Below, in pieces: positions 346 to 45,595 of a stretch of DNA of 64,000 bases. Position 1 is the first letter of the stretch; each line of letters starts with the position of its first letter. The notes beneath the pieces were generated by a model. It saw only the letters and a program-made list of their open reading frames with translations, searched no databases and had not been told where the DNA came from. Source of the stretch: Olsenella sp. An285 (GTDB lineage Bacteria; Actinomycetota; Coriobacteriia; Coriobacteriales; Atopobiaceae). A program made the position numbers and the translations under genes. The DNA is taken from contig NZ_NFIZ01000002.1 of NCBI RefSeq assembly GCF_002159625.1, positions 62,001-126,000 on the forward strand. Direction: 5' to 3'.

Positions 346-601
346 CAGGTCCTCCTTGCGTCGTTGGTCCCTCAAGTATGAGGCAGGGCTTTCAGACTGC
401 TTCAAGCTTTCGGCCGGCGGGCCCACATCGGGGGCGGGGAGCCCAATGCCCGTGCCGTGCCAAGACCGCTCGCCGGCCAGACGTTCTTCTCGCCGATTGC
501 CCGACACATTCCGGAAATCTGTTGGATACGCTGAACTGACTATGCCGTGGCCGAGGGGGCCGCGGTGCGCAATAGACTCCAGAAGTGCAAGGAGAGGGCC
601 T
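346..601. other. Divergent intergenic region with one CGAGAAGAAC-family copy
   Basis: This is 256 bases between two divergent genes, so promoters for both should lie here. I see no confident -35/-10 pair. One exact copy of the window-wide 10-mer lies at 483-492 in the GTTCTTCTCG orientation. No ORF with a ribosome site is visible. Confidence 0.5.
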
Positions 602-4287: not shown

Positions 4288-5478
4288 GTGGCAAGGCGTA
4301 CCCAGAAGAGAAGACGCGGCGGCGAGAAGAACCTGGATCAGGCGGCGCTTCCCGCGCTCTCCGCGCTGACGGAGCTCCCCTCCTTCGAGGAGCTTGCTCC
4401 GAGCGAGCGCCAGCTCGACGCCTATCGCGAGGCCTGCGCGCGAGCCGTCTCCTCCGGGGCGGGTGCGTCCGAGCTCGTCCTTGGCTGCGTCGTGCGCCTC
4501 GACCGGGGCTTCCCGGCCGTCCTCTGCGAGGACTCCACCTTCCGCGCCGAGTTCTCCGCCCGCCTCACCAAGGGCGGCCTCGCCGGACGAGCGGACGCGC
4601 GCGTGGCGGTGGGCGACTGGGTGTGCGCCCGGCGTCCCCACGGCCACGACATGGGCCTCATCGAGGAGATCGTCCCGCGCGAGAGCGACATCGCGCGCTG
4701 GCGCGGGGGGGCGCGCGGCGAGCGCCAGACGCTCGCGGCCAACGTGGACGTGGTGCTCGTGGTGCAGCAGCTCGGGGAGCGAGCCGTGTCCTGCGAGCGC
4801 ATCGCCCGCTCGGCCGTCATCGCCCGCGACTGCGGGGCGGGCGTGGCCGTGGTCCTCACCAAGGCCGATCGCGCCTCCGACGACGTCCTCGCCCGCGACG
4901 TCGCCGCCATCCGGGAGATCCTGGGGGAGGCCTGCCCGCTCGCGCTGACGTCGTCTGCCGCCACCGGCGCGGAGGAGGAGCGCGTCCGCGCGTGCGCCGA
5001 GCGCCTGGGAGTGCCGTGGGGGACGGATGCCGTCCGCGCGCTCGTGCCCGCGGGCGTGGTGGCCATCGTGCTGGGGGAGTCCGGTGCGGGCAAGTCCACG
5101 CTGCTCAACGCCCTTCTGGGCCGCGAGGCGCTGGAGACGGGCGAGGTGCGCGCCTCGGACGACACGGGTCGGCACACCACCGTGGCCCGTCGCATGGTGT
5201 CCCTGCCCGGCGCCGGCATCATCGTGGACGAGCCGGGGCTCAGGTCGCTGCCCATCGTGGGGCACGAGCGCGGGCTCGCCAAGGTCTTCCCGGACGTCGC
5301 GGAGGCCGCGCGGGGGTGCCGGTTCAGGGACTGCACGCACACGCACGAGCCCGGGTGCGAGGTGCGCGCCGGGCTTGCCCGGGGGGACTACTCAGAGGAG
5401 AGGCTCGCGTGCTACGTGGCGCTGGCGAACGAGATGCGGGAGAGCGCGTCCCAGCTCGACCCCGACGTCGTTCTGTGA
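4288..5478 (+). CDS. rsgA: Ribosome small-subunit GTPase RsgA
   Basis: RsgA is a circularly permuted GTPase that checks late maturation of the 30S subunit. The G motifs appear in the permuted order: G4 as TKAD (191-194), then the P-loop GESGAGKST (263-271), then G3 as DEPG (DTPG is usual). The zinc knuckle is C-x4-C-x-H-x-H-x3-C (Cys344 to Cys357, ending THEPGC). The N-terminal part before residue about 120 is the OB-fold region. The start is GTG 4288, preceded by ACGGAGG; the frame opens upstream, but the extra sequence looks non-coding. A TATACT -10 lies at 4254-4259. The 10-mer CGAGAAGAAC at 4323-4332 encodes Glu-Lys-Asn close to the N-terminus. Confidence 0.93.
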   Translation: MARRTQKRRRGGEKNLDQAALPALSALTELPSFEELAPSERQLDAYREACARAVSSGAGASELVLGCVVRLDRGFPAVLCEDSTFRAEFSARLTKGGLAGRADARVAVGDWVCARRPHGHDMGLIEEIVPRESDIARWRGGARGERQTLAANVDVVLVVQQLGERAVSCERIARSAVIARDCGAGVAVVLTKADRASDDVLARDVAAIREILGEACPLALTSSAATGAEEERVRACAERLGVPWGTDAVRALVPAGVVAIVLGESGAGKSTLLNALLGREALETGEVRASDDTGRHTTVARRMVSLPGAGIIVDEPGLRSLPIVGHERGLAKVFPDVAEAARGCRFRDCTHTHEPGCEVRAGLARGDYSEERLACYVALANEMRESASQLDPDVVL

Positions 5479-5762
5479 CCGGGGCCTAGACAGCATCAAA
5501 TTACAAATCACATAGACCCTCGCGAAGATTCTGCCCTGTGACGGCCCTGTGGCGGCCGTGCGGTGCCCTCGAGGTTCTTCTCGATAGCGAGAAGAACCTC
5601 GAGCTGGTGTTTCGCCCTCCTGTGCAAGCGCGCGGGAAGATTCGCGCACGCCCCGTGGCGAGCAATGCCGCGACGACCCGGGTTTTGCCGGGACGCGGGC
5701 GGACAATGCGCTCACGGAAGTCGCCGCCCGCGGGCGGCGGGCACGAGGGGAGGCATTGGCAG
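5479..5762. other. Intergenic stretch with paired 10-mer hairpin
   Basis: About 280 bases separate rsgA from the Tad operon. The recognisable content is the perfect inverted pair at 5568-5603 and, further on, the leader of cpaB. No gene with a ribosome site is seen. Confidence 0.55.
5568..5603. terminator. Perfect stem-loop built from two head-to-head CGAGAAGAAC copies
   Basis: CTCGAGGTTCTTCTCG at 5568-5583 pairs perfectly with CGAGAAGAACCTCGAG at 5588-5603 around the 4-base loop ATAG. Each arm contains one exact copy of the repeated 10-mer. It lies 90 bases downstream of rsgA and upstream of the Tad operon, a terminator-like position. No T-run follows. Confidence 0.7.
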
Positions 5763-6485
5763 ATGACGCGTCGCTTCAGGCTTGTGGTTTCGGGCGCCTG
5801 TGCGCTGCTGGCGGCGGTGCTCTGCGGGCTCTACGGGCAGCACGTCCGCGACGAGGCGGACCGCGTGCGCGCGGAGGCGCTCGAGCGCTACGGGGGCGAG
5901 GTGGTGAGCCTCGTCGTGGCGCCGGAGGGTCTCGAGGCGGGGGACGTGGTGGACCGCCGCAACGTGACCGAGCGCGACTGGCTCTCCGACCTCGCGCCGC
6001 GCGACGCCATCGTGGGGATGGACGAGGTGCTGGGGGCGGAGGTCACCATTCCCGCTGCCGCGGGCACGCCGCTGACCTCCCTCAACTTCCGCGACAACGA
6101 GGACGCCGTCGAGGTCCCGTCCGGATGCGTGGCGCTCACGGTTCCCGTGACGCAGGACCTGGGGCTTCCTGCGGCGACAGCCGCGGGGACCACGCTCGCC
6201 GCATACGAGGTCGAGGACTCGGGGGTGAGCCTCGTAGCCTCCGACCTCCTCGTCCTCCGGGCACCGGCGGACCAGTCCGGCATAGGGTCCCGCGGGGACG
6301 TGACGATCGCGGCTCGGCCGGAGAGCGTCGCGAGCGTCCTCTCCGCGAGCGCCGAGGGGAGCCTGCGCCTCGCGCTCCCCGCGGACGACGCGGAGGACCT
6401 CTCCGCCGGCCTGGGCACGGCGCCCAACCAGGTGGCGCCCGAGGAAGGCGGGGACGAGGGCTCGGAGGGGGTTGACGAGCCATGA
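5763..6485 (+). CDS. cpaB: CpaB/RcpC-like Flp pilus assembly protein (SAF domain)
   Basis: This 240-residue protein has an N-terminal membrane anchor (about 6-22, hydrophobic LVVSGACALLAAVLCGLYG). An SAF-like segment follows (VVAPEGLEAGDVVDRRNVTERDW...), the hallmark of CpaB/RcpC proteins that help assemble Flp pili at the membrane. The C-terminal tail is acidic and low-complexity. ATG 5763 was chosen for the GGGGAGG nine bases upstream; an in-frame ATG at 5706 is possible. The stop overlaps the next start as ATGA. In organisms without an outer membrane this protein has no secretin partner, and none is encoded here. Confidence 0.8.
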   Translation: MTRRFRLVVSGACALLAAVLCGLYGQHVRDEADRVRAEALERYGGEVVSLVVAPEGLEAGDVVDRRNVTERDWLSDLAPRDAIVGMDEVLGAEVTIPAAAGTPLTSLNFRDNEDAVEVPSGCVALTVPVTQDLGLPAATAAGTTLAAYEVEDSGVSLVASDLLVLRAPADQSGIGSRGDVTIAARPESVASVLSASAEGSLRLALPADDAEDLSAGLGTAPNQVAPEEGGDEGSEGVDEP

Positions 6486-7735
6486 GCGACTGGCTGGCGG
6501 CCTGCGACCAGGGGGACCGCAGGGCAGTCCGCGCGCTCGTCCGCTCCCTCGACCCCACGGGGTCCCTCGAGTTCGCCGCAACGGCAGACGCCGCGCGGCG
6601 CATGGTCTTCGAGTCTGCGCCGGGCGAGCTTGGCGTGGTGGTGGGGCCTCTCTCCGGGGGCGTCTCTGAGGTGAACCTCGCCGCTGCCGTGGCGCAGGAC
6701 GGCAACGCGCGCTGCGTGGTGCTCGCGCGGGGAGGGGCGACCGGGTCGCTTCGCTCCCGTGCGGAGCGGGCGGGCGTTGACCTCGTGGCGGACCTCGACG
6801 GGGTTCTCCCGGCGGAGGCTCGGGCGGAGAGCGATGGGGGTCGCCGCTCCGCCGAGCCCCCGCTCCTCAGGGCGGCGCGGAGCGCCCCCGCGCTCGTGGG
6901 CGACGTCTCCGAGCGGGCGCCCGTCATCGTCTTCTGCTCCGGGCGCGGGGGCGTGGGAAAGACCTCCGTCGTGGCAATGGCGGCGGCAACCGCGGCCTCG
7001 TGGGGAATGCGGGTGTGCGCCATCGACCTCGACCTCTCGTGTGGGAACCTCTACAGCTGCTTCGGCCTTGGCAACGGCGTTGACCTTGCGCGGGTCGTGG
7101 GGCAGGCGGGCGGGGAGTCGATGTCCCGCGAGCTCCCCGGGGCCCTGGCGGACCCGGGCGTGCAGGTTCTGGGCCCCTGCGAGCTTCCCGAGGCGGCGGA
7201 GCTCGTTGCCCCGTACGCCGGCGAGCTCCTCTCGCATGCGTCGGTCGAGTTCGACCTCGTTCTGGTGGACACCTCGGCGTGCTTCACGGACGCCGTCGCG
7301 CAGGCGGCGCAGCTCGCGGACAGGCTCGTGCTCGTCTGCGACGGGAGGCCCGGCGCCACTTCGTCCCTCGCTCGCACGAGCGGTCTTGCCGCCCGGCTGG
7401 GCGTCGAGCGGACGAGGATGGTTCGCCTGGAGAACGGGGTGAGCCCCCGCGCACGGCGCGACGAGGTCCGGGCGCCCGCCGGCGAGGGTCTGGAGGCGGC
7501 GAGGACCCAGCGCGTCCTCGACGGCGGGACCGAGGTGCCCGACCTTCTTGGGTCGGGGCAGGTGTGCGAGCTCGTGGGCTCCGCCTCCCCGTTTGCCGAG
7601 TCGGTCGCGACCCTGGTGGCGCAGATTCTCTCGGAGCTGGGCGGGCTTCCGGAGTGCGAGGAGGCGGAGCGGGCGCTCTCCGGCGCCGCGCCGCGCAGGC
7701 GGTCCCTCTTCGGGGGCAGATGGGGGGCGAGGTAG
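6482..7735 (+). CDS. tadZ: TadZ/CpaE-like MinD-family ATPase
   Basis: The 417-residue protein has an N-terminal receiver-like region (about 1-130) and a MinD/ParA ATPase domain. The deviant Walker A is GRGGVGKTS, preceded by VIVFCS. A second motif VCAIDLDLSCGNL and LVLVDTSA follow, as in CpaE/TadZ, which place the pilus machine at a cell site. It overlaps cpaB by four bases and is followed directly by tadA, the usual order in actinobacterial tad loci. Regulation beyond operon membership cannot be seen. Confidence 0.85.
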   Translation: MSDWLAACDQGDRRAVRALVRSLDPTGSLEFAATADAARRMVFESAPGELGVVVGPLSGGVSEVNLAAAVAQDGNARCVVLARGGATGSLRSRAERAGVDLVADLDGVLPAEARAESDGGRRSAEPPLLRAARSAPALVGDVSERAPVIVFCSGRGGVGKTSVVAMAAATAASWGMRVCAIDLDLSCGNLYSCFGLGNGVDLARVVGQAGGESMSRELPGALADPGVQVLGPCELPEAAELVAPYAGELLSHASVEFDLVLVDTSACFTDAVAQAAQLADRLVLVCDGRPGATSSLARTSGLAARLGVERTRMVRLENGVSPRARRDEVRAPAGEGLEAARTQRVLDGGTEVPDLLGSGQVCELVGSASPFAESVATLVAQILSELGGLPECEEAERALSGAAPRRRSLFGGRWGAR

Positions 7736-7736
7736 G

Positions 7737-9062
7737 ATGTCGGTCCTCGAGCGCGTGAGGGAGGCGGAGACGACCTCCGGGACGTCCCCCGCGGGAGGGC
7801 GAGACCTGAGGGCGCTGCGGGAGCGCCTCAAGGCGGCGCTGGTGGAGCGCTTGGGTCTCCCCGTCATCGCCGGGATGCTCTCCGGCGACGAGGCCGCCCG
7901 CGTGAGGTCGGAGCTGGGCGTGGCCCTCGAGGCGATTCTCAACTCCCAGGGGTTCGAGTCCGTGCTCCCGGGGGAGCGGGGCACGCTCGTGCGCCAGGTG
8001 CTCGACGAGGTCTGCGGGCTCGGGCCCATCCAGCCCCTGCTCGAGGACGCCGAGATTACCGAGGTCATGATCAACGGGTGCCAGGCGCTCTTCTACGAGA
8101 AGGACGGCGAGCTCTTTGCCGCGGACACCGTCTTCGACTCTCCCGAGCAGATCATGATCGTCATGGACCGGATTCTGGCCCCGCTGGGGCGCAGGCTCGA
8201 CAGGTCGAGCCCCATCGTGAGCGCGCGCCTCGCCAATGGCGACCGAGTGAACGCCGTGGCGGCGCCCATAGCGATTGACGGTCCCGCCGTCACGATACGC
8301 AAGTTCTCGGACAGCATCCGGACCCTCGCCCGGCTCGTGGAGCTCGGGTCGCTGCCCGCATGGTACGCGCGCCTCCTCTCCTGGGCGGTCCGCTCGCGGA
8401 GGTCCATGGCCGTTGCGGGCGGGACGGGCTCCGGAAAGACCACGCTGCTCAACGCGCTCTCGTGCGAGATTCCGCTGGGCGAGAGGATCGTGACCATCGA
8501 GGACTCGGCCGAGCTGCGCTTTGACGCGCACCCCAACGTCGTGCGCCTCGAGGCGCGCGGGACCTCCATCGAGGGGTCGGGGGAGATCACGATTCGCGAT
8601 CTCGTGAAGAACGCGCTGCGCATGCGGCCGGACCGCATCGTCGTGGGCGAGGTTCGCGGGGAGGAGGCGGTGGACATGCTCAACGCGCTCAACACCGGAC
8701 ACGACGGGTCGCTCACGACGCTCCACGCGGGCAGCGCCGAGGAGGCGGTCCTGCGCCTGATCCTCATGGCGCGCTTTGGCATGGACCTTCCCACGGAGCT
8801 CATCGAGGAGCAGATAGCCACCGCCATCAACCTCATCGTGGTGACGCGGCGCCTGGCGAGCGGGAGGCGCGTGGTGACCTCCATGACCGAGGTCTCGCGC
8901 GCCCCGGACGGGTCTGCCCGGCTGGACGAGTGCGTCTCGTTCGACAGGGGGTCGCTCTCCTGGCATCTGCGGAGGGAACCCGAGTTCGTGGGGCGCTCCG
9001 TCGCGGACGGCGTCCTTGCGGGGGAGGAGGTGCGGGAGTGGAGGGAGTTCTTCTCGCTGTAG
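7737..9062 (+). CDS. tadA: TadA/CpaF secretion ATPase
   Basis: This 441-residue ATPase powers Flp pilus assembly. The Walker A motif is GGTGSGKTT, followed by the Asp box VTIEDSAEL, Walker B region DRIVVGEVRGEE and the His box DGSLTTLHAG, all typical of CpaF-type VirB11-like ATPases. The N-terminal domain has GPIQPLLEDAEITEVMING. The start ATG 7737 follows the tadZ stop by one base with GAGGTAGG before it; longer in-frame starts would run back inside tadZ. Its last codons overlap tadB by 25 bases, and the overlap holds a copy of GTTCTTCTCG (9047-9056) read here as Glu-Phe-Phe-Ser. Confidence 0.93.
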   Translation: MSVLERVREAETTSGTSPAGGRDLRALRERLKAALVERLGLPVIAGMLSGDEAARVRSELGVALEAILNSQGFESVLPGERGTLVRQVLDEVCGLGPIQPLLEDAEITEVMINGCQALFYEKDGELFAADTVFDSPEQIMIVMDRILAPLGRRLDRSSPIVSARLANGDRVNAVAAPIAIDGPAVTIRKFSDSIRTLARLVELGSLPAWYARLLSWAVRSRRSMAVAGGTGSGKTTLLNALSCEIPLGERIVTIEDSAELRFDAHPNVVRLEARGTSIEGSGEITIRDLVKNALRMRPDRIVVGEVRGEEAVDMLNALNTGHDGSLTTLHAGSAEEAVLRLILMARFGMDLPTELIEEQIATAINLIVVTRRLASGRRVVTSMTEVSRAPDGSARLDECVSFDRGSLSWHLRREPEFVGRSVADGVLAGEEVREWREFFSL

Positions 9063-9976
9063 GGACGGGCGCCCTCGCCGGGGCATCCGCGTTCGTCGCG
9101 CTCTCCGGTGACGTGGCGGTGCGCTCGCCCGGCCTCCTCACGCGCGCGGCAGTGAGGCGCGGCACGACGGCGCTGAGGCGCATCGGCCAGACGCGCCTCG
9201 TCGGGTGGGTGCTCTCCACGGGGCCCGGAGGCAGGCTCGCCGCGGAGGTCGCGTCCGCGCCGGTCCCGACGGTCCTGGGGCTGGGGCCGTCGGAGTCTGC
9301 CGCCGCGGTGTCGTGCGGCGTCCTCCTCGCGTCCCTTGCGAGCGGCGTCCTTCTCGGCTCGCCGCTGGCCGGCCTCGTGAGCGCCGCCGCGCTCGTGGCG
9401 CTTGTCGTCGCCCGGGACGCCTCGGCGCGGCAGCGCCTGAGGCGCGAGGTCCTGGGGGAGATGCCCGGGGTGTACCGGGCCCTCTCGATGGCAATGGCCT
9501 CCGGCCAGACGCTGGCACAGGCGGTCGAGTACGTGGGGTCGCACGAGCGGGGTCCGGCGGCGTCGGTCTTTGCGAGGATGTCCCTTCGCCTGCGGTGCGG
9601 CGTGGGCACGGAGGAGGCGGTGAGGCTGCTCGCGGACGAGCTCGACGTGCCCGGGGCGGAGCTCCTCGCCGCCGCGCTCGTGATTTCGCACCGGACCGGG
9701 AGCCCCCTTCGGGACCTCCTGCTGCGCTCCGCGCGCCTGGCCGAGCGACAGGGGGAGTTCGAGAGGCTCCTCACGGTCAAGACGGCACAGGTGAGGCTTT
9801 CCGTGAGGATCGTCTGCCTGCTGCCCGTGGTGATGGTGGGGGTCCTCACGCTCGTCTCTCCTGACTTTCAGAAGGGGCTGCTCACTCCCTCCGGGGTGGG
9901 ATGCGTCGCCGGCGCGCTCCTTCTCGACGGGGTGGCCCTGCTGCTCATTCGAAAGATCATGAGGGGGGTGATGTGA
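9038..9976 (+). CDS. tadB: TadB-like pilus assembly inner membrane protein
   Basis: This 312-residue T2SSF-domain protein forms, with TadC, the membrane platform of the Tad machine. Membrane segments are visible near the N-terminus (VLLAVGTGALAGASAFVAL), around residue 90-125 and near the C-terminus (VRIVCLLPVVMVGVLTLV, GCVAGALLLDGVALLLI). The T2SSF part includes EMPGVYRALSMAMASGQTL. GTG 9038 was chosen because GGAGGAGG sits seven bases upstream; it lies inside tadA. A copy of the 10-mer falls nine bases after this start and encodes Gly-Val-Leu-Leu-Ala here. Confidence 0.85.
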   Translation: MEGVLLAVGTGALAGASAFVALSGDVAVRSPGLLTRAAVRRGTTALRRIGQTRLVGWVLSTGPGGRLAAEVASAPVPTVLGLGPSESAAAVSCGVLLASLASGVLLGSPLAGLVSAAALVALVVARDASARQRLRREVLGEMPGVYRALSMAMASGQTLAQAVEYVGSHERGPAASVFARMSLRLRCGVGTEEAVRLLADELDVPGAELLAAALVISHRTGSPLRDLLLRSARLAERQGEFERLLTVKTAQVRLSVRIVCLLPVVMVGVLTLVSPDFQKGLLTPSGVGCVAGALLLDGVALLLIRKIMRGVM

Positions 9977-9977
9977 G

Positions 9978-10619
9978 ATGGACGAGGCGTCGGTCGTGCT
10001 CGTGGCGTCCGTCTCCGTGCTGGCGCTCCTGGGGACGTTCGTCCTCTCCGGCGAGCGATGGCGGCTGCGGGCGGCGCCCGTCCACCCGATGCTGGCGGAC
10101 GTGCTCGGGACGGTTGCGTCGCTGGGGCCGGTGAGGCGGGCGCAGGAGGCGGAGGTGAGGGCGCGCAGACGGGCGGAGTGCCTCTCCGAGCTGCCCGTCA
10201 TGCTCGACGTGGTGACGCTCGGCCTCTCCGCAGGCCTCTCGTTCGACTCGTCGCTCGAGCTCTACTGCGAGCGCTACGGGAGCGAGCTCTCGAGGCTCTT
10301 CTCGGAGTCGATGCTCAGCTGGCGCATCGGCGCGCGCAGCAGGGAGGAGGCGCTCTCGCGGGTGGCGGACGAGGTCGGGGTCTCGGCCCTGGGGAGGTTC
10401 GCCGCCGTGGTGTCCGAGGCGCTGGCGTTTGGCACGCCCCTCGCCGAGGCGCTGGAGCAGCAGGCGCAGGCCATTCGAGAGGAGCAGCGCTCGCAGGTCG
10501 AGGAGGAGATCGAGAAGGTGCCGGTGAAGATGCTCGTTCCGCTGGGGACGCTCATTGTCCCCGCGATGTTTCTTGCCATCCTGGGCCCCCTCCTGGGGTC
10601 CGCGCTGGTGGTCGGATGA
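9978..10619 (+). CDS. tadC: TadC-like pilus assembly inner membrane protein
   Basis: The 213-residue protein is the second T2SSF platform subunit. It has an N-terminal membrane span, the family segment ELPVMLDVVTLGLSAGLSFD near residue 73, and a C-terminal span (KMLVPLGTLIVPAMFLAILGPLL). It starts one base after the tadB stop. It is shorter than typical TadC (about 300 residues) because the region before the T2SSF domain is brief, which is common in actinobacterial loci. Confidence 0.85.
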   Translation: MDEASVVLVASVSVLALLGTFVLSGERWRLRAAPVHPMLADVLGTVASLGPVRRAQEAEVRARRRAECLSELPVMLDVVTLGLSAGLSFDSSLELYCERYGSELSRLFSESMLSWRIGARSREEALSRVADEVGVSALGRFAAVVSEALAFGTPLAEALEQQAQAIREEQRSQVEEEIEKVPVKMLVPLGTLIVPAMFLAILGPLLGSALVVG

Positions 10620-10650
10620 GGGCGCGAGCCCGTGAGAGAAGGGAGACCCG

Positions 10651-10848
10651 ATGGACCTGACGTGCGTTGTGGGAGGAGCGGCGCATGCCGCGAGAAGGCT
10701 GGCGAGGGACGAGTCCGGGCAGGGCACCACCGAGTACGCGATTCTCGTGGGCGTGCTCGTGGTGATAGCCATCCTGGCGATCATCGCCTTCAGGGACAAG
10801 GTGGCGGAACTGTGGGACGCCATCGCGAACGGCATCAACTCGCTGTGA
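10651..10848 (+). CDS. flp: Flp-type pilin
   Basis: This 65-residue protein has the hallmark of Flp pilins: a basic leader, then GQGTTEYAILVGVLVVIAIL, where cleavage after a glycine and the conserved Glu at mature position about 5 are expected. A short amphipathic tail ends INSL. It is probably the major structural pilin. The start ATG 10651 follows GGGAGA. The stop overlaps the next GTG start. No prepilin peptidase gene (TadV/CpaA) is present in the window, so processing must depend on a gene elsewhere. Confidence 0.88.
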   Translation: MDLTCVVGGAAHAARRLARDESGQGTTEYAILVGVLVVIAILAIIAFRDKVAELWDAIANGINSL

Positions 10849-11273
10849 GGCCCCGCTGGGCGGCGGGCGCGCTCGCCGCCCTCCTTGTCGCCGTCCTGAT
10901 TGCCATGGGAGGGGGCGACAAGGACGGGGAATCGCACGCAGGTTCCGAGGGTGATGTCGGGGCGCTTGGCGGGATTGTCTCGGACGAGGCCGCGAGTCCC
11001 CTCTCGGATGCGCTGTCCGCGGCGGAGGCGGGGGGCTACGAGAGCGATCGCACGCTCGTCGAGGAGGGCGAGGCGGTGCTCGAGGGGTATCGCTCGCGTG
11101 GGGACTGCGTCCTCGCGCGCGCAGGGTACCTGGACCTGACGGGACGGACGTGGGGATGCGTGACGCAGGGAGCGGGGTGGGTCGAGATATGCATCGTTCG
11201 GGAGGCGCCCGACGGAGGGGGATGCTCCGTCGCCACGTGGCGCATGGACTCAGGCGACGTGGGCGCGCCGTGA
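10845..11273 (+). CDS. Small membrane-anchored protein between two pilin genes, unknown function
   Basis: I do not recognise this 142-residue protein. It starts VRPRWAAGALAALLVAVLIAMGGG, a single N-terminal membrane anchor or signal, followed by an acidic, Gly-rich extracytoplasmic domain with four cysteines (DCVLA, WGCVT, EICIV, GGCSV) that could form two disulfides. GTG 10845 was chosen because it overlaps the pilin stop as GTGA, the same coupling used by the next gene. Lying inside the tad operon, it may be a pilus-associated or tip protein; that is inference from position only. Confidence 0.6.
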   Translation: MRPRWAAGALAALLVAVLIAMGGGDKDGESHAGSEGDVGALGGIVSDEAASPLSDALSAAEAGGYESDRTLVEEGEAVLEGYRSRGDCVLARAGYLDLTGRTWGCVTQGAGWVEICIVREAPDGGGCSVATWRMDSGDVGAP

Positions 11274-11476
11274 CGCGCACCGTGGCGGATGAGGCGGGCC
11301 AGTCGACCCTGGAGTACCTGCTCACGCTCGTCGCCTTCGTGGCGATGGTCGTGGCGCTCGGCTTCATCTGGCATGCCGCGCGGGACGGGCGCCTCCTGGG
11401 GATCGCGATCGAGGTGGCCTCGCACGGCTCGGGGAGGGGCGGCCTCACGCTGCTCCAGGACGTGGTGGAGTACTGA
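11270..11476 (+). CDS. Second small pilin-like protein
   Basis: This 68-residue protein has the class III/Flp-like core GQSTLEYLLTLVAFVAMVVALGF after a short leader, matching the Gln-Ser/Thr-x-x-Glu-Tyr pattern of the first pilin. The tail beyond the hydrophobic part is longer and different. It is likely a minor pilin. GTG 11270 overlaps the upstream stop (GTGA), and its own TGA overlaps the start of the next gene, so translation is probably coupled. Confidence 0.75.
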   Translation: MTRTVADEAGQSTLEYLLTLVAFVAMVVALGFIWHAARDGRLLGIAIEVASHGSGRGGLTLLQDVVEY

Positions 11477-11952
11477 TGGCGGAGCGCGCGGACAACTGCT
11501 CCGGGCAGGCGACGGTTGAGGCGGCGCTGCTCGTGCCCGTGGTCCTCACGCTCGTGGCGCTCCTCGTGCAGCCCGCGTGCGCGCTCTACACGAGGTCCGT
11601 CATGGCGGGGACCGCGGCTGAGGTGGCACGGCTGGTGGCGACGGCGCGGGGGTCGGATGGGGACGTGCGCGACTACGCGCTCAGGCGCCTCGCCGCGGTG
11701 CCGGACGTCTCGGTCTTCCACGAGGGAGGGCCCGAGGCGTGGGACGTGGAAGCGGAGGGCCCGGGGGACGACGGGAGGGTGACGGTGCGCATTGAGGGGA
11801 GCGTGAGGCCCCTGCCGCTGCTCGGGGCCCTCGTCTCTGCGCTCGGGCCCTCGGGTGACGGGTGCGTGACCCTGCGCGCGGAGGCGACGCTCGACGCGCG
11901 GTCGGAATGGGTGAGGGGGAGCTATGAGGAGTGGATCGGAATATGGGGGTGA
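11476..11952 (+). CDS. tadE: TadE-like pseudopilin
   Basis: The 158-residue protein begins MAERADNCSGQATVEAALLV, the TadE/G leader with a hydrophobic helix directly after GQATVEAA. The remainder is an extracytoplasmic domain with Arg/Asp-rich beta structure. TadE proteins are minor pseudopilins needed for pilus formation. The start ATG shares its first base with the stop of the upstream pilin-like gene. Confidence 0.8.
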   Translation: MAERADNCSGQATVEAALLVPVVLTLVALLVQPACALYTRSVMAGTAAEVARLVATARGSDGDVRDYALRRLAAVPDVSVFHEGGPEAWDVEAEGPGDDGRVTVRIEGSVRPLPLLGALVSALGPSGDGCVTLRAEATLDARSEWVRGSYEEWIGIWG

Positions 11953-13987
11953 GGGGCGCGCGCCGCGCGCCCCGGTGCTCTCGATCTTCAGGGACAGCGA
12001 GGACGGCTTCACCACCGTGGCCGTTGCGGTCTCGCTGGTGCTGAGCCTGACGCTGGTGTTTGCCTCGGCGAGCGTCCTGTGGGTGGGAGGGAGGTCCTCC
12101 GAGGTCCAGCGCGTCGCAGACGCGAGCGCCATGGCCGGCCAGAACGCCGTGTCCGCCTTCTCGACGGTGGTGCAAGTGCTCGACGCGTGCGCGCTCAGCA
12201 TGGGTCTCACCGGGGTGATCGTATTCGGGGCGGGCCTGGTGGTCTCCTGCGTGCCGGGCCTCTCTGCGGTGGGGGCGCAGATCACGGGCGCGGGAGGCAG
12301 GATCCTCGAGGCGCGGAGGAGCTTCGTGAGAAGCGCCGCGGATGGGGTCGAGAAGCTGGAGGCCACGCTCCCGCTGCTGATAGTCGCCAACTCGGCGTCC
12401 TGCGTGGCAGCAAACTCCCAGGGCGGGATCTCATACACGGGGTGCGCGCTCCCGTTTCCCGCGGAGTCCGCCTCTGACTTCTCGGCGCTTCGGGCGGACG
12501 TCGACGACGAGCGCCTCGAGGACCTCTCCGAGAAGATGCGGGAGGCGTCGGACGAGCAGGCAAGAGCCCAGGAGCGCGCGGACGAGGCCAAGGAGCGCGG
12601 GTGGAGGGCGGACTGCGTCCCCTCGCCGTACTGCATGCGCGAGCGCGCCGCCTCTCTCGCGGGCCTCTCGGGCGCGGCGAATCCGGACTACCCCTCGGTG
12701 GACGGATGGACGTTTGCGGCGCCCCTTCTCCGGGCGCGGAACTACTACGCGGCGCGCCTCTCCTCGGCGACGGTGGGAGGGTCTACCGCCGAGGAGATCA
12801 CGGACTCGGCCTGCAGGCGAGCCTTCTACGAGTACGCCCTCGACCAGGTGCGGGGAGGATCCTACGTGGAGAACGCCGACGGGAGCGTGAGCATCGACCT
12901 GCCGAGCCTTCCTCGCAACGCGGACCAGACGCGCGCGACCGAGCTCTACACCCGCTCCATGTGGCCGTGTACCGTGGAGGACGGGGCAAGGACGCTCCAC
13001 TCCTCCCTCCTGTGCCCGGGCGCCACCGGCGCGGGGTCGGGCACCGCCTCGCTCGCGGAGCTGGAGGCGGGCGCGCTCTCCCCCTGCAAGGAGTGCCGCA
13101 TGGACATCGGGGACATGGGTAGGGTCGCCTCCGCCTCCACCTCGATAGCCAACGGCTTCGAGCACCATTGGCGCGACGTGGTCGAGGCGTCGGAGGACTA
13201 CGAGCAGGCGAAGCGCGAGGAGGCGGAGGCCAAAAGGCGCGCCCAGGAGCTTGCCGAGGAGGGGGAGGACGCGTTTGGCGAGGAGATGGAGCGACTCGCC
13301 GCGGAGCGCCCCGAGCTCTGCCCGCCCGGGGCGTGGGGCTGCGTCTCGGTGGTCGCCAGGGGGGAGGCGCATGCGGTCCCGGCCGAGCTCACGAGCTCGT
13401 TCCTCTCGTCCGCGGAGCTTCCCGAGGGAGCTGCCGTATCTGCCGCCGCTCTCGCCCCGGACGAGTCCACCGCAGAGAACAACGTGCTCTCGAGGTTCTT
13501 CGACTCGCTCACCGCGAGCGGGTCCGTGATGGGCGGCGTCCTTGACGGGGTCATGGACCTCTGGGGAAGCCTTCTCGTGGGCTATGGCTCGGCGTACGGG
13601 AGCGTGGCGGAGGCCGGAGGGGAGTTTCTCGACGGGCTGGACGGGGTTCTCGGCGGGACGGTGGGGTCCTGGCTCAGGGGCAGGCTCAAGCAGGTCATGC
13701 AGGACATGGGCTTCGAGCCCGTTGACATGCGACTGAGAAAGCCCGTGCTCACGAACACGCAGGACGTGCTCGAGCAGAGCGGCTTCGAGCAGCTCTCAAC
13801 GGTGAGGTCGCTCGTTCGCGCGCTGCCCGCCTCCGGCACCTCCGCCGAGGACTTCGCCCGGTCGGTGGGATACTGGCTCTCGGATGAGACGGGCGGCGAG
13901 TTCACGGTCGCCGAGCTCGCCATCCCCGGCACGGAGATATCCATACCGCTCACCATCGATCTCGAGGCGTTGGGGGCGGGGTCATGA
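11924..13987 (+). CDS. TadG-like large membrane-anchored pilus protein
   Basis: This 687-residue protein has an N-terminal TadG/TadE-like hydrophobic helix after EDGFTTVAVAVSLVLSLTLVF and a second hydrophobic stretch around residue 90-110. The rest is likely extracytoplasmic. Two charged helical segments, about 190-230 (DDERLEDLSEKMREASDEQA) and about 425-465 (EQAKREEAEAKRRAQELAEE), look like coiled coils. Several Cys pairs occur between them. ATG 11924 lies inside tadE and follows GAGGGGGAGCT. The final TGA overlaps the next start. It is probably a surface or tip component; the length is unusual for TadG in loci I know. Confidence 0.65.
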   Translation: MRSGSEYGGEGRAPRAPVLSIFRDSEDGFTTVAVAVSLVLSLTLVFASASVLWVGGRSSEVQRVADASAMAGQNAVSAFSTVVQVLDACALSMGLTGVIVFGAGLVVSCVPGLSAVGAQITGAGGRILEARRSFVRSAADGVEKLEATLPLLIVANSASCVAANSQGGISYTGCALPFPAESASDFSALRADVDDERLEDLSEKMREASDEQARAQERADEAKERGWRADCVPSPYCMRERAASLAGLSGAANPDYPSVDGWTFAAPLLRARNYYAARLSSATVGGSTAEEITDSACRRAFYEYALDQVRGGSYVENADGSVSIDLPSLPRNADQTRATELYTRSMWPCTVEDGARTLHSSLLCPGATGAGSGTASLAELEAGALSPCKECRMDIGDMGRVASASTSIANGFEHHWRDVVEASEDYEQAKREEAEAKRRAQELAEEGEDAFGEEMERLAAERPELCPPGAWGCVSVVARGEAHAVPAELTSSFLSSAELPEGAAVSAAALAPDESTAENNVLSRFFDSLTASGSVMGGVLDGVMDLWGSLLVGYGSAYGSVAEAGGEFLDGLDGVLGGTVGSWLRGRLKQVMQDMGFEPVDMRLRKPVLTNTQDVLEQSGFEQLSTVRSLVRALPASGTSAEDFARSVGYWLSDETGGEFTVAELAIPGTEISIPLTIDLEALGAGS

Positions 13988-14463
13988 GCGTCGAGGCGGG
14001 CGGCCTTGCCAGGGACCGCTCGGGGCAGATGGTGGTGGAGCTCGCCGTCGTGGTGCCGGTGGCTATCGTGGTGGCGCTGGTGGTGCTCAACCTGATGGGC
14101 TTCATCGAGGCGTGCGCCGCCTTCGATCAGGTGGCGCTGGACGCCGTCGTCGCCCACGGGGTGGCGCCGGCGGGGGAGCAGACCCAGGTGGCCTCGGTGG
14201 AGGAGGTTCGCGCGGCCCTTGCCGAGGGGCTCGGCAGGGAGGACACGTGCGAGGTCGAGGTGAGCGCAGAGGGGGTCTCCCCTGGCGCAAGCGGCGGCTC
14301 GTTCGTCATATCGCCCCTGCTCACGCGCTACACCTGCACGCTCTACTACCATCCCTGGCCGCGCCTTCTCCGCATGCCGGGAATCACCTTCGAGGCCCCT
14401 CTCTCGCTGCGTCACGAGCGGCAGCTGGTGGTCGACCGCTACCGGCCCGGGGTGGTGGTCTGA
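13984..14463 (+). CDS. Second TadE-like pseudopilin
   Basis: This 159-residue protein has the leader RSGQMVVELAVVVPVAIVVALVVLNLMGF with the conserved Glu directly before the hydrophobic helix, as in TadE. The mature part ends in a beta-rich segment. It overlaps the large TadG-like gene by four bases (ATGA) and is followed one base later by the DUF192 gene. A minor pilin role is likely. Confidence 0.75.
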   Translation: MSVEAGGLARDRSGQMVVELAVVVPVAIVVALVVLNLMGFIEACAAFDQVALDAVVAHGVAPAGEQTQVASVEEVRAALAEGLGREDTCEVEVSAEGVSPGASGGSFVISPLLTRYTCTLYYHPWPRLLRMPGITFEAPLSLRHERQLVVDRYRPGVVV

Positions 14464-14464
14464 G

Positions 14465-14824
14465 GTGGTCACGGCGAGGCTCAGGTCGGACGAGAGGCCG
14501 TGGGTGACGCACGAGCTCGTGGTCCTCTCGAGCTGGCTCGAGCGGCTCCGCGGCCTGCTGGGCACGGGACGCGGCGCGCGCCCCGTCCTTCTCGCGCGCT
14601 GCGGGTCCGTTCACACCTTTGGCATGCGCTATCCCATCGACGTCGCGTTCATCGGCGAGCGCGGGGAGGTGCTGCGCGTGCGGCGCTCCGTCGCGCCCGG
14701 CTGCCTCTGCTCGTGCCCGGGGGCCGAGTGCGTGGCGGAGCGGCCGGCGGGTGAGGACGAGTGGCTCGTGGAGGGGGAGCACCTGTGGATCGTCTCCGTC
14801 GGCGCCAACGCCGCGGGGGCCTAG
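14465..14824 (+). CDS. DUF192 family protein
   Basis: The 119-residue protein matches the DUF192 fold: a central LLARCGSVHTFGMRYPIDVAFI segment (the H-T-F-x-M-x-x-P-I-D motif) and a C-terminal LRVRRSVAPG...E element. Function of the family is unknown. It starts with GTG one base after the upstream stop. Its place at the end of the tad operon suggests a pilus link, but DUF192 genes are also found elsewhere. No signal peptide is seen, unlike many DUF192 proteins. Confidence 0.8.
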   Translation: MVTARLRSDERPWVTHELVVLSSWLERLRGLLGTGRGARPVLLARCGSVHTFGMRYPIDVAFIGERGEVLRVRRSVAPGCLCSCPGAECVAERPAGEDEWLVEGEHLWIVSVGANAAGA

Positions 14825-15441: not shown

Positions 15442-15505
15442 TGCGAGCGGCAGCCCGACAAACCCGCTGCCGGACGTTCTTCTCGGCAAAATGGGAAAAA
15501 AGTCT

Positions 15506-16581: not shown

Positions 16582-18573
16582 ATGGGCTGCACAAGAAGAG
16601 AGTTTCTCGCACTTGCCTCCGTAGGCGCGGTTGGCGGTCTGGCGGCCTGCACGCCCGCCCAGCAGCCCGACCCCGCCCCGGACGATCAGGAGCCCACCAA
16701 CCCGGACTTCGACCTCGAGGAGTTCAAGAGCCTCGCGCTCGACCAGTCGGCCTGGCGCTACGACGAGGACAACGACGTCTACTACCAGCTTGGTCTCACC
16801 TACTGCAAGAGCCCCGCGACGACCACCTACGAGTCCCTCGCGGTCTTCGTGCCCGGGCCCTTCTTCACGGCCGAGAAGAACGGCGACACCTACACCTGCA
16901 CCGTCAACGAGAAGGCCGTCGTGGGCAACTTCACGGCGTCGACCGCTCCCGTCCTCATGCCCATCAACACGGGTACGCTCTCTGCCCAGATGAGCCCCAC
17001 GGTCTACGGCTACGAGGGCCTCGCCCCCTACCTGGAGGCGGGCTGCGTCTACGTGTACGCCGGCTTCCGCGGCCGCTCTGCGGGCTACGACACCGCCTCG
17101 GGCTCCGACGAGCTCTTCCCGGGGGGCTCCCCCTGGCCCGTGGTTGACCTCAAGGCCGCGGTGCGCTACCTGCGCTACAACCGCTCCTGCCTTCCGTGCG
17201 ACACGAGCCGCGTCTTTGTCTTTGGCTTCTCCGCGGGCGGCGGCGTGAGCGCCGTCATGGGCGTCTCGGGCGACTCCGCGCTCTACGAGCCCTACCTCGA
17301 GTCCATCGGCGCCGTGACCCATGACGCCGAGGGCGAGTCGGTCTCCGACGCCATCGCCGGCAGCGCCTCGTGGTGCCCGGTCACCTCGTTCGACATGGCG
17401 GACGCCGCGTACGAGTGGGGATCCGGGCAGTATGCGAGCGATGGCACGCGTGCCGAGGGCACCTGGACGCGCGCCCTCTCCCAGGACCTCGCCGCCGCCT
17501 ACGGCGCGTGGGTGAACGAGATGGACCTGCGCAACGCCGACGACGAGCAGCTCACCCTGGACGAGACCGAGGCGGGCGCCTACTCGATGGGCTCCTATGC
17601 CTCCGCGGTGCTGGGAAGCATCGACGAGGCCGCCACGTACTTCGTCCAGAACACGCCGTTCCCGTACACCTACACCCCGCAGCGCCTGGACGAGCCCTCC
17701 TTCCCCGGGGACCCCAACCTCGCCGCCACGCGCGCCTCCGAGGCCGCGCAGTCGCCCGCCGCGGGCGTTCAGGCGGACGGAACCGGCGAGGCTGCGGCCG
17801 ACGGCACCGGTTCCGAGCCCGTGGAGGGCGAAGCTGCCACGGGGGCAGCCGGAGAGGCCGCGGAGGCCACCGACGGCGCCGCCACGGATGCCGCCGAGGC
17901 GGCCGCACCCCTCGCGGGCGTGACCCAGGTGCCCTCGACGATCTACGACTCCGCTCAGAACTACTTCGCCGCCCTCAACAACGAGGGCTGGTGGATCAAC
18001 TACAGCCTTCGCTCCCAGAGCGTCTCCGTCTCCAGCCTGCGGGACTTCTCGCTCCACATGCGCCCGGCCGAGCGCGCGACCTCGCCCTTCGACCTGCCGG
18101 ACCGCAGCTCCCGCACGAACCAGCTCTTTGGCATCGGCGAGGAGTCCACGCTGCACTTCGACGCCGTCGCCGGCGAGCTCGTGCAGAGCAGGGCGGGGGA
18201 CTACGCCGCCCTCGAGGGCTGGGAGGACGACTACGAGCTCGAGTGGGCCGAGGACCTCGAGAAGGTCGACTCCCTCGAGACGGACATGGCCACGCGCGTG
18301 GCCATGATGAATCCGCTCTTCTGGCTGAGCGGCCACTACGAGGGCTACGGCCAGGCCAAGGTGGCCCCCCACTGGCGCATCAACGAGGGCCTCTTTGACA
18401 CCGACGCGCCCCTCACCAGCGCCATCAACGTCGTTCTGGCGCTGCGCAAGTACGACGGCGTCGCGGACGTCTCCCACACGCCCGTCTGGGGCCAGGGCCA
18501 CGTCCTCGCCGAGCGCTCGGGCTCGGCCACATCGAACCTCATTGACTGGGTCATCGCCTGCTGCACGGCGTAG
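16582..18573 (+). CDS. Lipoprotein alpha/beta hydrolase (esterase-like)
   Basis: This 663-residue protein starts with a twin-arginine-type lipoprotein signal: TRREFLALASVGAVGGLAAC, with Cys22 as lipid site. The mature protein shows an alpha/beta-hydrolase nucleophile elbow FGFSAGGG near residue 213-220 and a late His (VSHTPVWGQGH). The pattern resembles large secreted esterases such as tannase or feruloyl-esterase-like proteins; the substrate is not decided. Residues about 390-450 are an Ala/Glu/Thr-rich linker inserted into the catalytic domain. A 10-mer copy at 16872 encodes Glu-Lys-Asn. A hairpin terminator follows. Confidence 0.75.
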   Translation: MGCTRREFLALASVGAVGGLAACTPAQQPDPAPDDQEPTNPDFDLEEFKSLALDQSAWRYDEDNDVYYQLGLTYCKSPATTTYESLAVFVPGPFFTAEKNGDTYTCTVNEKAVVGNFTASTAPVLMPINTGTLSAQMSPTVYGYEGLAPYLEAGCVYVYAGFRGRSAGYDTASGSDELFPGGSPWPVVDLKAAVRYLRYNRSCLPCDTSRVFVFGFSAGGGVSAVMGVSGDSALYEPYLESIGAVTHDAEGESVSDAIAGSASWCPVTSFDMADAAYEWGSGQYASDGTRAEGTWTRALSQDLAAAYGAWVNEMDLRNADDEQLTLDETEAGAYSMGSYASAVLGSIDEAATYFVQNTPFPYTYTPQRLDEPSFPGDPNLAATRASEAAQSPAAGVQADGTGEAAADGTGSEPVEGEAATGAAGEAAEATDGAATDAAEAAAPLAGVTQVPSTIYDSAQNYFAALNNEGWWINYSLRSQSVSVSSLRDFSLHMRPAERATSPFDLPDRSSRTNQLFGIGEESTLHFDAVAGELVQSRAGDYAALEGWEDDYELEWAEDLEKVDSLETDMATRVAMMNPLFWLSGHYEGYGQAKVAPHWRINEGLFDTDAPLTSAINVVLALRKYDGVADVSHTPVWGQGHVLAERSGSATSNLIDWVIACCTA

Positions 18574-18628: not shown

Positions 18629-19309
18629 ATGAGAACCTTTGACAGGAGAGAGGCCCTGGGCCTCGCCGCCCTTCTCGGCACCTCGCTCTTCTCGCTCTCG
18701 GGCTGCGAGTCCGGCGAGCCCGCGGCCGACGCCTCCTCTGGCGAGGACGCCGCCTCGGACGGGCAGACGGACGACTCCCTGTACGTTCCCGCAGAGGACG
18801 ATCCGTACGCGACGGGCGTGCACCACGCCACCATAGAGGTGGAGGGCTACGGCACCATCGAGGTGGCGCTCAACGCCAACGTGGCGCCCATCACCGTCTC
18901 CAACTTCTGCAACCTGGCGGAGGAGGGCTTCTACGACGGGCTCACGTTCCATCGCATCATCGAGGGCTTCATGATCCAGGGCGGCGACCCCCTGGGCAAC
19001 GGCACGGGCGGCTCCGAGAAGAACATCAAGGGCGAGTTCTCCTCCAACGGCGTGGAGAACAACATCCCGCACGTCCGCGGGACGATCTCCATGGCGCGCT
19101 CCCAGGACCCGGACTCTGCGAGCTCGCAGTTCTTCATCATGCAGGAGACCGCCGAGCACCTGGACGGGGAGTACGCCGCCTTTGGCAACGTGACCTCGGG
19201 CATCGAGGTCGTGGACGCCATCTGCGAGGCCGTGCCGGTCGAGGACTCCAACGGCACCGTCGCCGCGGAGAACCAGCCCGTCATCACCAAGATCTCCATC
19301 GTGGACTAG
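18629..19309 (+). CDS. Lipoprotein cyclophilin-type peptidyl-prolyl isomerase
   Basis: The 226-residue protein has a signal with RR and a lipobox (FDRREALGLAALLG...LSGC, Cys26), then an acidic linker and a cyclophilin domain (about 66-226). Catalytic-core motifs are FHRIIEGFMIQGGD and SSQFFIMQ. It should isomerise X-Pro bonds of exported proteins at the outer face of the membrane. AGGAG lies before ATG 18629. A 10-mer copy at 19015 encodes Glu-Lys-Asn. Confidence 0.9.
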   Translation: MRTFDRREALGLAALLGTSLFSLSGCESGEPAADASSGEDAASDGQTDDSLYVPAEDDPYATGVHHATIEVEGYGTIEVALNANVAPITVSNFCNLAEEGFYDGLTFHRIIEGFMIQGGDPLGNGTGGSEKNIKGEFSSNGVENNIPHVRGTISMARSQDPDSASSQFFIMQETAEHLDGEYAAFGNVTSGIEVVDAICEAVPVEDSNGTVAAENQPVITKISIVD

Positions 19310-24469: not shown

Positions 24470-25987
24470 ATGGCTGACGAGAAGAACGAGGCAAAGGCCC
24501 CGGCCGAGGCCGGCGGCGCCGTGAGGGGCGTCTACGCGAGCGTCCCGGCGGACCGCGCGACGGGCGTTCCCGAGGCGGCCTCGGCGCGCCTCGCGTGGAC
24601 GGACGGCGAGCGCAGCCTCGAGTACGAGGCGCGGGCCGCTCACCTGGAGGTGCGTGACGACGCGGGCGTTCTTCTCGGCCGCATGTTCTCGCTCTCCTAC
24701 GTCGCGGTGGACGCCGAGGGCATGCCGGACGTCTCCCGGCCCGTGACCTTTGCCTACAACGGTGGCCCGGGCTCAAGCTCCGTGCCCATCAACTTTGGCG
24801 GCATCGGGCCGCGTCGCGTTGCCACGGACGGTGTGCGTCACGTGCGCGCGGACGCCCCGGTTGAGGACAACCCGCATACGCTCCTGGTTGACTCGGACGT
24901 GGTGTTCCTGGACGCCCTGGGCACCGGCTGGTCCGTGCTCGCGGAGGACGCCGACCCCAAGAAGATCTTCTGCACGGACGGTGACGCGGACGCCTTCGCG
25001 CGCGCCATCTGCGCGTGGCTCACGGAGAACGGCCGCTGGTCGAGCCCGCTCTACCTCTTTGGCGAGTCCTACGGCACCGTGCGCAACGCCGCGCTCATGC
25101 GCCTTCTGGGCGAGCGGGGCGTGCAGCTCACCGGCGTGGTCATGCTCTCGGCCGTCTTCAACATCGCGGGGCTCCTCAACCCCGGCGACGACCTCTACTA
25201 CCTTGGCATGATGCCCACCTTTGCGGCCACGGCGCAGTTCTTCGGCCGCGCCGGCGCCGGCGTGGGCGAAGAGGAGTGGTTCGAGCGCGCCATGGCCTTT
25301 GCCGAGGACGAGCTCGCCCCCGCGCTCCTGCGCGGCGACCGCCTGGGAGAGGCGGACGAGCGCGCCGTGGCCGAGCGCATGGCCACCTTCATCGGGCTTC
25401 CCGCCGAGCACATCCTGGCGCACCACCTGAGGATCGACCTGCTCGACTTCCGCACGCACCTGCTCGCGAACGAGGGACGGGTGTGCGGCAGGCTGGACAC
25501 GCGCTTCTCCTCCGACGCGCCGTCTCCCATGCAGAGCCACGACATGTGGCTCGCCGGCGAGGACGCCGCGGACGACGCCGTCGAGGGCGCCTGGGTGCGC
25601 GCGTTCAGGCGCTTCTGCGCGGACGAGCTGGGGTACCAGGGCCCCGCGCGCTACCTCTCCAACAACTACGACAAGGTCAACGCCGGCTGGGACTGGGGAC
25701 ACGAGGAGCCTGGCCTGGGTCGCGTGGCCACGCCCAACGTCTCGCTCGACGTGGCCGTGGCGCTGCGTCGCAATCCCACGATGAAGCTCGCCCTCATCGG
25801 CGGGCGCTACGACGCCGCCACCACCTGGTGGAACGTCGTCCACGACATGAGCTGCCAGTTCCTCTCCCCCGAGCTCAAGAGCCGCGTGAGCTGGTATCTC
25901 TACGGCTGCGGCCACATGTCCTACGTGGACGTTCCCACCCTCGAGGCCATGGGTCGCGACCTGCACGAGTTCTACGAGAGGCGCTAG
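24470..25987 (+). CDS. Serine carboxypeptidase-like (peptidase S10) protein, cytoplasmic
   Basis: The 505-residue protein has the S10 features: oxyanion segment YNGGPGSSS (about 102-110), nucleophile FGESYG (about 197-202), Asp in GGRYDAATTWW (about 444) and His in GCGHMSY. Unlike most S10 enzymes it has no signal peptide, so it should act inside the cell on peptides. GGGAGGAAGA precedes ATG 24470. Two 10-mer copies are inside the gene: 24478-24487 directly after the start (Glu-Lys-Asn) and 24668-24677 on the other strand. Confidence 0.85.
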   Translation: MADEKNEAKAPAEAGGAVRGVYASVPADRATGVPEAASARLAWTDGERSLEYEARAAHLEVRDDAGVLLGRMFSLSYVAVDAEGMPDVSRPVTFAYNGGPGSSSVPINFGGIGPRRVATDGVRHVRADAPVEDNPHTLLVDSDVVFLDALGTGWSVLAEDADPKKIFCTDGDADAFARAICAWLTENGRWSSPLYLFGESYGTVRNAALMRLLGERGVQLTGVVMLSAVFNIAGLLNPGDDLYYLGMMPTFAATAQFFGRAGAGVGEEEWFERAMAFAEDELAPALLRGDRLGEADERAVAERMATFIGLPAEHILAHHLRIDLLDFRTHLLANEGRVCGRLDTRFSSDAPSPMQSHDMWLAGEDAADDAVEGAWVRAFRRFCADELGYQGPARYLSNNYDKVNAGWDWGHEEPGLGRVATPNVSLDVAVALRRNPTMKLALIGGRYDAATTWWNVVHDMSCQFLSPELKSRVSWYLYGCGHMSYVDVPTLEAMGRDLHEFYERR

Positions 25988-36265: not shown

Positions 36266-36315
36266 AACTGGCGAGAAGAACCATCCGGTCGCGGCACGTT
36301 TGGAAGGAAGCCCAT

Positions 36316-40400: not shown

Positions 40401-44908
<4,508 letters not shown>

Positions 44909-45556: not shown

Positions 45557-45595
45557 GCGGGGCGGCCGCTGCAGCTCGTTCTTCTCGGCAGTGGC

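Follow-up and report, generated by a model that had tools for sequence, protein, structure and literature searches.

Why does a bacterial chromosome carry hundreds of copies of one 10-mer, and what does an inverted pair of them do between rsgA and a Tad/Flp pilus operon? Both questions are raised by a 64,000-nucleotide stretch of Olsenella sp. An285 (the window; C12:62001-126000 of genome G000, which comprises 2.41 Mb in 33 contigs and is 95.1% complete). The 10-mer, CGAGAAGAAC, belongs to the consensus GNCGAGAAG(A/G)AC and to the broader core GNCGAGAAGNNC. A sample of 864 kb, or 36% of the genome, consists of the window and 40 further stretches. Genes were called with a hexamer gene finder of our own, which gave 706 genes and a coding share of 82%; a few long gaps scored as intergenic may hide genes.

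The hairpin between rsgA and the Tad operon

The arms of the hairpin are CTCGAGGTTCTTCTCG (5568-5583) and CGAGAAGAACCTCGAG (5588-5603), separated by the loop ATAG (5584-5587), exactly the perfect 16-bp stem and four-base loop described in the original prediction. In addition to the two inverted 10-mers, the stem contains six base pairs (CTCGAG) that would be expected by chance in about 1 in 2000 cases for one given pair (own arithmetic, at this base composition). The hairpin lies 89 nt 3' of the rsgA stop codon and 159 nt 5' of the SAF-domain gene, and the 65-nt stretch containing it has a minimum free energy of about -33 kcal/mol. Both arms carry A at position -2 instead of the consensus G, and the genome contains the whole 16-mer CGAGAAGAACCTCGAG 11 times, a count that includes both arms. 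Upstream of rsgA, a gene pair resembling NADH-linked [FeFe]-hydrogenase occupies positions 101-4146. The features of the window are collected in Table 1.

Table 1. Coordinates of the hairpins, genes, motif copies and variant copies in the window
Feature	Position	Strand	Remark
Hairpin, 16-bp perfect stem	5568..5603		two inverted 10-mers with CTCGAG ends
Second hairpin, 16-bp perfect stem	30776..30810		loop of 3; between convergent genes
rsgA (RsgA GTPase)	4288..5478	+	5' of hairpin; Pfam RsgA_GTPase E 1.8e-31
Tad/Flp pilus operon	5763..14463	+	candidate uptake pilus; also encodes TadZ-like ATPase, TadB, TadC
SAF-domain gene	5763-6485	+	head of Tad operon
TadA gene	7737-9062		Tad operon
Flp gene	10651-10848		Tad operon
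TadE-like gene	11476-11952		Tad operon
Motif copy	483..492	-	intergenic; own gene finder
Motif copy	4323..4332	+	inside rsgA (Glu-Lys-Asn)
Motif copy ATCGAGAAGAAC	5574..5583	-	hairpin arm, A at -2
Motif copy AGCGAGAAGAAC	5588..5597	+	hairpin arm, A at -2
Motif copy	9047..9056	-	tadA/tadB overlap
Motif copy	15476..15485	-	intergenic
Motif copy	16872..16881	+	genic
Motif copy	19015..19024	+	genic
Motif copy	24478..24487	+	genic
Motif copy	24668..24677	-	genic
Motif copy	25996..26005	-	intergenic
Motif copy	26188..26197	+	intergenic, in repeat family
Motif copy	27089..27098	+	genic
Motif copy	27901..27910	-	genic
Motif copy GCCGAGAAGAAC	30782..30791	+	intergenic, second hairpin
Motif copy GCCGAGAAGAAC	30795..30804	-	intergenic, second hairpin
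Motif copy	34723..34732	-	intergenic
Motif copy	36272..36281	+	intergenic, in repeat family
Motif copy	37008..37017	+	genic
Motif copy	40410..40419	+	genic
Motif copy	41312..41321	-	genic
Motif copy	45578..45587	-	intergenic
Motif copy	47032..47041	+	intergenic
Motif copy	51200..51209	+	intergenic
Motif copy	55165..55174	-	intergenic
Motif copy	55563..55572	-	genic
Motif copy	57349..57358	+	genic
Motif copy	59587..59596	+	genic
Motif copy	63250..63259	+	intergenic
Variant CGAGAAGGAC	8096..8105	+	genic (tadA)
Variant CGAGAAGGAC	9347..9356	-	genic (tadB)
Variant CGAGAAGGAC	14585..14594	-	genic
Variant CGAGAAGGAC	22037..22046	-	genic
Variant CGAGAAGGAC	51260..51269	+	intergenic
Variant CGAGAAGGAC	53153..53162	-	genic
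Variant CGAGAAGGAC	53750..53759	-	genic
Variant CGAGAAGGAC	58074..58083	-	genic
Variant CGAGAAGGAC	59953..59962	-	genic
Variant CGAGAAGGAC	61041..61050	+	genic
Variant CGAGAAGGAC	63653..63662	-	intergenic

The pair could be a simple terminator of rsgA, with the 10-mer serving as a favoured stem sequence. Nine of the 16 pairs in the perfect stem are G-C, and the tail, CTGGTGTTTC, is weakly T-rich and meets the loose rule of a terminator scan, for which 0.3 such sites are expected by chance. That further paired copies should exist at gene ends was borne out by the second perfect pair between convergent genes; it and the rsgA pair are the two that form perfect 16-bp stems among the exact intergenic copies of the 864-kb sample. 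Convergent pairs with a gap of 0-12 also number 33 across the 31 genomes of the genus, spread over 17 of them, against 11.2 expected if placement were uniform and about 16 once a factor of 1.4 allows for intergenic crowding (P ~1e-4). This genome holds two (5568-5603 and C3:30505), where uniform placement predicts about 0.6 (own arithmetic). Divergent pairs exceed expectation (six in this genome and 73 across the 31), and their excess appears to come in part from a form with gap 0 that is found repeatedly in different genomes and is apparently coding.

As an account of the motif, however, a terminator module is very unlikely. Most copies are single, 166 of the 286 sample copies lie within genes, and 13 of 114 intergenic copies fall in hairpin arms compared with 57 of 570 (10%) in a flank-swapped control, which speaks against a general hairpin role. 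The inverted pair is found at the rsgA-tad gap in none of the eight closest named relatives, five of which have a single copy within 330 nt after rsgA, and termination would explain the hairpin at 5568-5603, not the 690 copies of the genome. The original prediction had treated an inverted pair at a gene end as a specific argument for an uptake-sequence-like role; with two convergent and six divergent pairs among 690 copies, and absence from the eight relatives, that argument is weak. Because close pairs are few genome-wide and none occurs at this site in the relatives, the pair at 5568-5603 is a local feature, which may, with its weak T tail, also terminate rsgA transcription as a secondary use.

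Abundance and placement of the motif

The window contains 29 copies of the 10-mer (16 on the plus and 13 on the minus strand), where an order-2 Markov model predicts 0.18. Genome-wide, the motif is non-palindromic and near strand balance, with 363 + 327 = 690 copies, and the reversed pattern occurs 8 + 10 = 18 times. In the 864-kb sample, CGAGAAGAAC ranks first of all 9-mers and 10-mers, with 286 copies against 19.7 expected from an order-4 Markov model. A G precedes it at -2 in 224 of the 286 copies and in 106 of the 120 intergenic ones. Of the single-base neighbours of the 10-mer in this sample, none exceeds 34 copies unless the change falls on one of the two letters preceding the last C: a change two letters before it gives CGAGAAGGAC, with 239 copies (183 with G at -2), and a change of the letter directly before it gives 90 copies with G, 78 with T and 47 with C.

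With a copy in overlapping genes counted twice, the sample holds 120 copies in 158.5 kb of intergenic DNA and 167 in 705.7 kb of coding DNA, an intergenic density 3.2 times that of coding sequence. When the 286 copies are sorted by frame, 120 are intergenic, 100 encode Glu-Lys-Asn, 36 are antisense to Val-Leu-Leu, 26 are antisense to Phe-Phe-Ser and four fall elsewhere. For the 114 intergenic copies with both neighbours known, the distance is below 30 nt for 29 of 121 flanking 3' ends and for 11 of 107 5' ends.

The large Glu-Lys-Asn share (100 of 286) and the occurrence of 29 of the 120 intergenic copies in nine repeat families would fit a motif produced by codon usage and the spread of repeats, a reading that we find scarcely credible. 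Synonymous-codon shuffles within genes yield 70 (65-79) of the 167 observed coding copies, which contradicts a codon artefact. Within the Glu-Lys-Asn frame, the base before GAGAAGAAC is C 100 times and G eight times, compared with 10267 and 4647 times for GAG in general; the rare-codon form GTTCTTCTC accounts for 42 of 246 Val-Leu-Leu. The same shuffle, applied to GNCGAGAAGNNC in ORFs of at least 600 nt, falls far short in every motif-bearing sample of the relatives: 36 observed vs 3.4 shuffled in Lancefieldella rimae (50% GC), 18 vs 2.4 in Atopobium oral taxon 199, 65 vs 20 in O. intestinalis, 212 vs 65 in T. provencensis, 30 vs 9 in Olsenella KGMB02461, 43 vs 12 in Tractidigestivibacter and 38 vs 15 in G026, a genome of the same genus. 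Olegusella shows no enrichment over its shuffle (1 vs 1.1). As 91 of the 120 intergenic copies lie outside the repeat families, an origin of the motif in these families was also rejected.

The intergenic repeat families carry the motif at a fixed place (at C1:33801, C1:48460, C28:55572 and others in G000). In the largest, which has ten copies in the sample, the flanks are GGGTATGTACAC and GTACATACCC, and window positions 26188 and 36272 represent other families. A known RNA family was considered and rejected, since an Rfam search of the window yields a tRNA only and the repeat loci L018 and L046 have no match. A REP-like repeat is also present in the window and sample (AATTGGGGACAGTCCC, TGACAAAGGGACTGTCCC), in which GGGGACAGTCCC occurs 48 times in 864 kb on both strands, with 0.1 expected; any tie to a RAYT-type transposase is conjecture.

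Motif density is lower in windows below 63% GC (2.2 copies per 10 kb vs 6.4 elsewhere; 6 vs 80 windows, the six from two places), and low-GC windows of T. provencensis give 2.2 vs 4.2 per 10 kb (6 vs 34 windows); the overall correlation of density with GC is weak (rho 0.23, P 0.03). Two motif deserts exceed chance, C23:122-145 kb and C1:69-95 kb (P 1e-4 and 3e-5). The former (L047; 23 kb, GC 58%) is a low-GC, motif-free, defence-type island; the four genes scanned there include those for GmrSD, a type III restriction subunit and an OLD-like protein. The latter has an ordinary GC of 67%, and its six scanned genes include some for ABC transporters, FeoB and a protein with a CHAP domain.

A motif that is abundant, sharp, clade-specific and rarer in low-GC DNA could also be a Chi-like signal, read inside the cell by a nuclease of the AddAB, RecBCD or AdnAB type so as to protect kin DNA or stimulate its recombination. 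Chi sequences vary between clades and, like HIP1, share with the motif that they are short and strongly over-represented. They are usually biased in orientation towards the leading strand, and to our knowledge all known Chi sequences are shorter than the motif. No leading-strand excess is seen among 157 T. provencensis copies in 20 stretches, a soft test given that the origin is not located and the skew is weak: by halves (60-1100 kb, mostly positive skew in 7/9 stretches; 1230-2530 kb, mostly negative in 7/11), 77 copies are presumed leading and 80 lagging (own sum), and by each stretch's own skew the division is 69 vs 88 (P 0.15). The 3.2-fold intergenic excess of the exact form also speaks against a Chi-like role, which we consider unlikely.

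Distribution and dialects in the Atopobiaceae

The nearest relatives of the window's RsgA (77-82% identity) are those of Thermophilibacter mediterraneus, T. provencensis, Olsenella isolates and further Atopobiaceae. In their ComEC coordinates, genus members G022, G008 and G025 coincide with the named genomes of T. provencensis, T. mediterraneus and T. gallinarum, which places species now assigned to Thermophilibacter in the genus of G000. In 60 genomes, the 10-mer is present in 100-698 copies in the 31 of the genus and in 2-126 copies in the other 29. The lowest count in the genus belongs to G026, where 100 copies compare with 257-698 in the other 30 and a 200-kb sample shows no excess between genes; the motif looks as though it were in decay there. 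Across 140 family genomes, GNCGAGAAGAAC occurs 184-618 times in 30 of the 31 genomes of the genus and 48 times in G026, with 0-14 for the reversed control. Outside the genus, counts reach 160-265 in a second genus (three genomes), 66-123 in a third (five), 50-85 in a fourth (eight) and 61-75 in four single genomes, and the other 89 genomes have fewer than 50.

Of 21 named genomes, 18 are clearly enriched in the core GNCGAGAAGNNC, with 300-2150 copies; 15 of the 21 belong to other genera, and 12 of these are enriched. Given as copies/reversed control, the six genomes that match members of the genus itself by ComEC coordinates are Olsenella A67 (2148/109), Olsenella uli An733 (2057/150), T. gallinarum (2053/125), T. 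provencensis (1967/150), Olsenella An270 (1953/112) and T. mediterraneus (1370/130). Beyond the genus, enrichment is found in Tractidigestivibacter (1625/108), OL-1 (1608/115), COR2 (1602/128), O. intestinalis (1562/169), L. rimae (843/51), oral taxon 199 (801/62), Parafannyhessea (747/54), Atopobium BS2 (610/71), KGMB02461 (540/91), O. porci (415/54), A. minutum (309/53) and O. massiliensis (303/46). Enorma (223/93) and Collinsella massiliensis (219/111) are hardly enriched, and in Olegusella (39/33) the core is not above chance. The ratio of intergenic to coding density for GNCGAGAAGNNC is 1.7 in G000, 1.2 in T. provencensis, 1.6 in O. intestinalis and 2.0 in L. rimae. It is 0.6-0.8 in oral taxon 199, KGMB02461, Tractidigestivibacter and G026 (few copies in some); among relatives, the broad core shows little or no excess between genes.

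Genera differ in the 5' end of the motif and in its two variable letters, which are AA and GA in Thermophilibacter and AG in O. intestinalis, whose form CGAGAAGAGC (484/Mb) is the clearest dialect. The forms of KGMB02461 and L. rimae are TGCCGAGAAG and GGCGAGAAG; the samples were 61-121 kb for the last four relatives compared.

Competence machinery and comparison with known uptake sequences

Among the 31 genomes of the genus, ComEC and ComEA are each encoded in 31 and DprA in 30, the exception being 81% complete. The ComEA and ComEC genes adjoin in G000 (C3:21145 and C3:22040). The Tad operon includes further genes without a Pfam match. The genome has a single match to the T2SSE-family ATPases, the TadA of the window, and Tad is therefore the likely pilus. 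Additional T2SSE matches that are far stronger (E ~1e-124) occur in O. intestinalis (G166 C2) and Parafannyhessea (G168 C4). Across the genomes compared, the motif does not co-vary with ComEC, ComEA, DprA, Tad or the number of T2SSE ATPases, the machinery being found with and without it. ComEC is present in motif-free Olegusella and motif-poor G026, and Tad genes adjoin rsgA in Olegusella and Collinsella as well. Because motif-free Olegusella has both ComEC and Tad, the link between machinery and motif is inferential.

This occurrence of ComEC and Tad where the motif is absent would suit a HIP1-like motif, that is, a site for methylation, protein binding or chromosome organisation that plays no part in uptake. 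HIP1 of cyanobacteria is comparably dense, and its function is unsettled. HIP1 is palindromic, however, and the motif is not; moreover, the genus variants, the preference for 3' ends and the depletion in low-GC DNA resemble those of uptake sequences. We consider this reading unlikely.

The DNA uptake sequence (DUS) of the Neisseriaceae is a 10-12-mer with hundreds to thousands of copies and genus or species variants around a fixed core; some copies form inverted pairs at gene ends, the DUS is scarce in acquired DNA, and some family members lack it (PMC3630211; PMC2397512). The Atopobiaceae motif is similar in length, copy number, dialects with a fixed core, some gene-end pairs and relatives without it. 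It differs in its core GNCGAGAAGNNC, in its occurrence in Gram-positive Coriobacteriia with Tad genes and in the rarity of close inverted pairs. In H. influenzae, 65% of the copies of the uptake signal sequence (USS) lie in ORFs, with about 86% of the genome coding, and no general orientation bias is seen (PMC2346458; PMC12616744). The motif is likewise abundant and unbiased in orientation, with a genic share (58%) below the coding fraction (82%), and is unlike the Pasteurellaceae USS in sequence, phylum and machinery. Natural transformation of Micrococcus luteus requires Tad/Flp together with ComEA/ComEC, and two tad loci are needed (PMC4322843). Here too an actinomycetote has Tad pili with ComEA/ComEC and no other type IV pilus genes, but a single Tad/Flp pilus was found. 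The term 'uptake sequence' is absent from the M. luteus paper (PMC4322843).

We judge it somewhat more likely than not that the motif is a DUS-like self tag for transformation through Tad, ComEA and ComEC. The uptake-like role first predicted is supported by the motif's abundance, its balance between strands, its excess between genes, its sharp consensus with variants by genus, its depletion in low-GC DNA and the competence genes; the inverted pair adds little. In the proposed mechanism, a surface protein, probably a pilin or another part of the Tad/Flp pilus, would bind the motif on extracellular double-stranded DNA. Pilus retraction and ComEA would then pass the DNA to ComEC, and DprA and presumably RecA would recombine it. 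Kin DNA would be favoured in uptake, and it is proposed that motif copies would therefore spread by biased conversion and remain sharp. For this genome, we infer competence, sequence-specific uptake, the receptor and the mechanism of spread alike.

A DUS-like tag here would lie outside the two families known for such tags. No uptake or competence experiment in Atopobiaceae was found; uptake sequences in Atopobiaceae or other Gram-positives were absent from the matches listed, in a search that covered no preprints and few subscription papers, and a search by motif letters gave unrelated titles among the matches listed. We regard it as evenly poised whether this is the first sequence-specific uptake tag in Gram-positives, shared by much of the Atopobiaceae as dialects of GNCGAGAAGNNC that differ by genus, recognised by a Tad/Flp pilus and not by a type IVa pilus such as that of Neisseria, and representing a third origin of kin-biased transformation, in a monoderm. 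If so, this third independent case, in a monoderm with another kind of pilus, would put explanations for the evolution of such motifs (molecular drive, repair or kin exchange) to the test, and DNA carrying the right variant would be a practical key to the genetics of gut and oral Atopobiaceae. Olegusella massiliensis (G169, L111), with ComEC and Tad genes and a motif not above chance, offers a natural comparison in the search for the protein that reads the motif.
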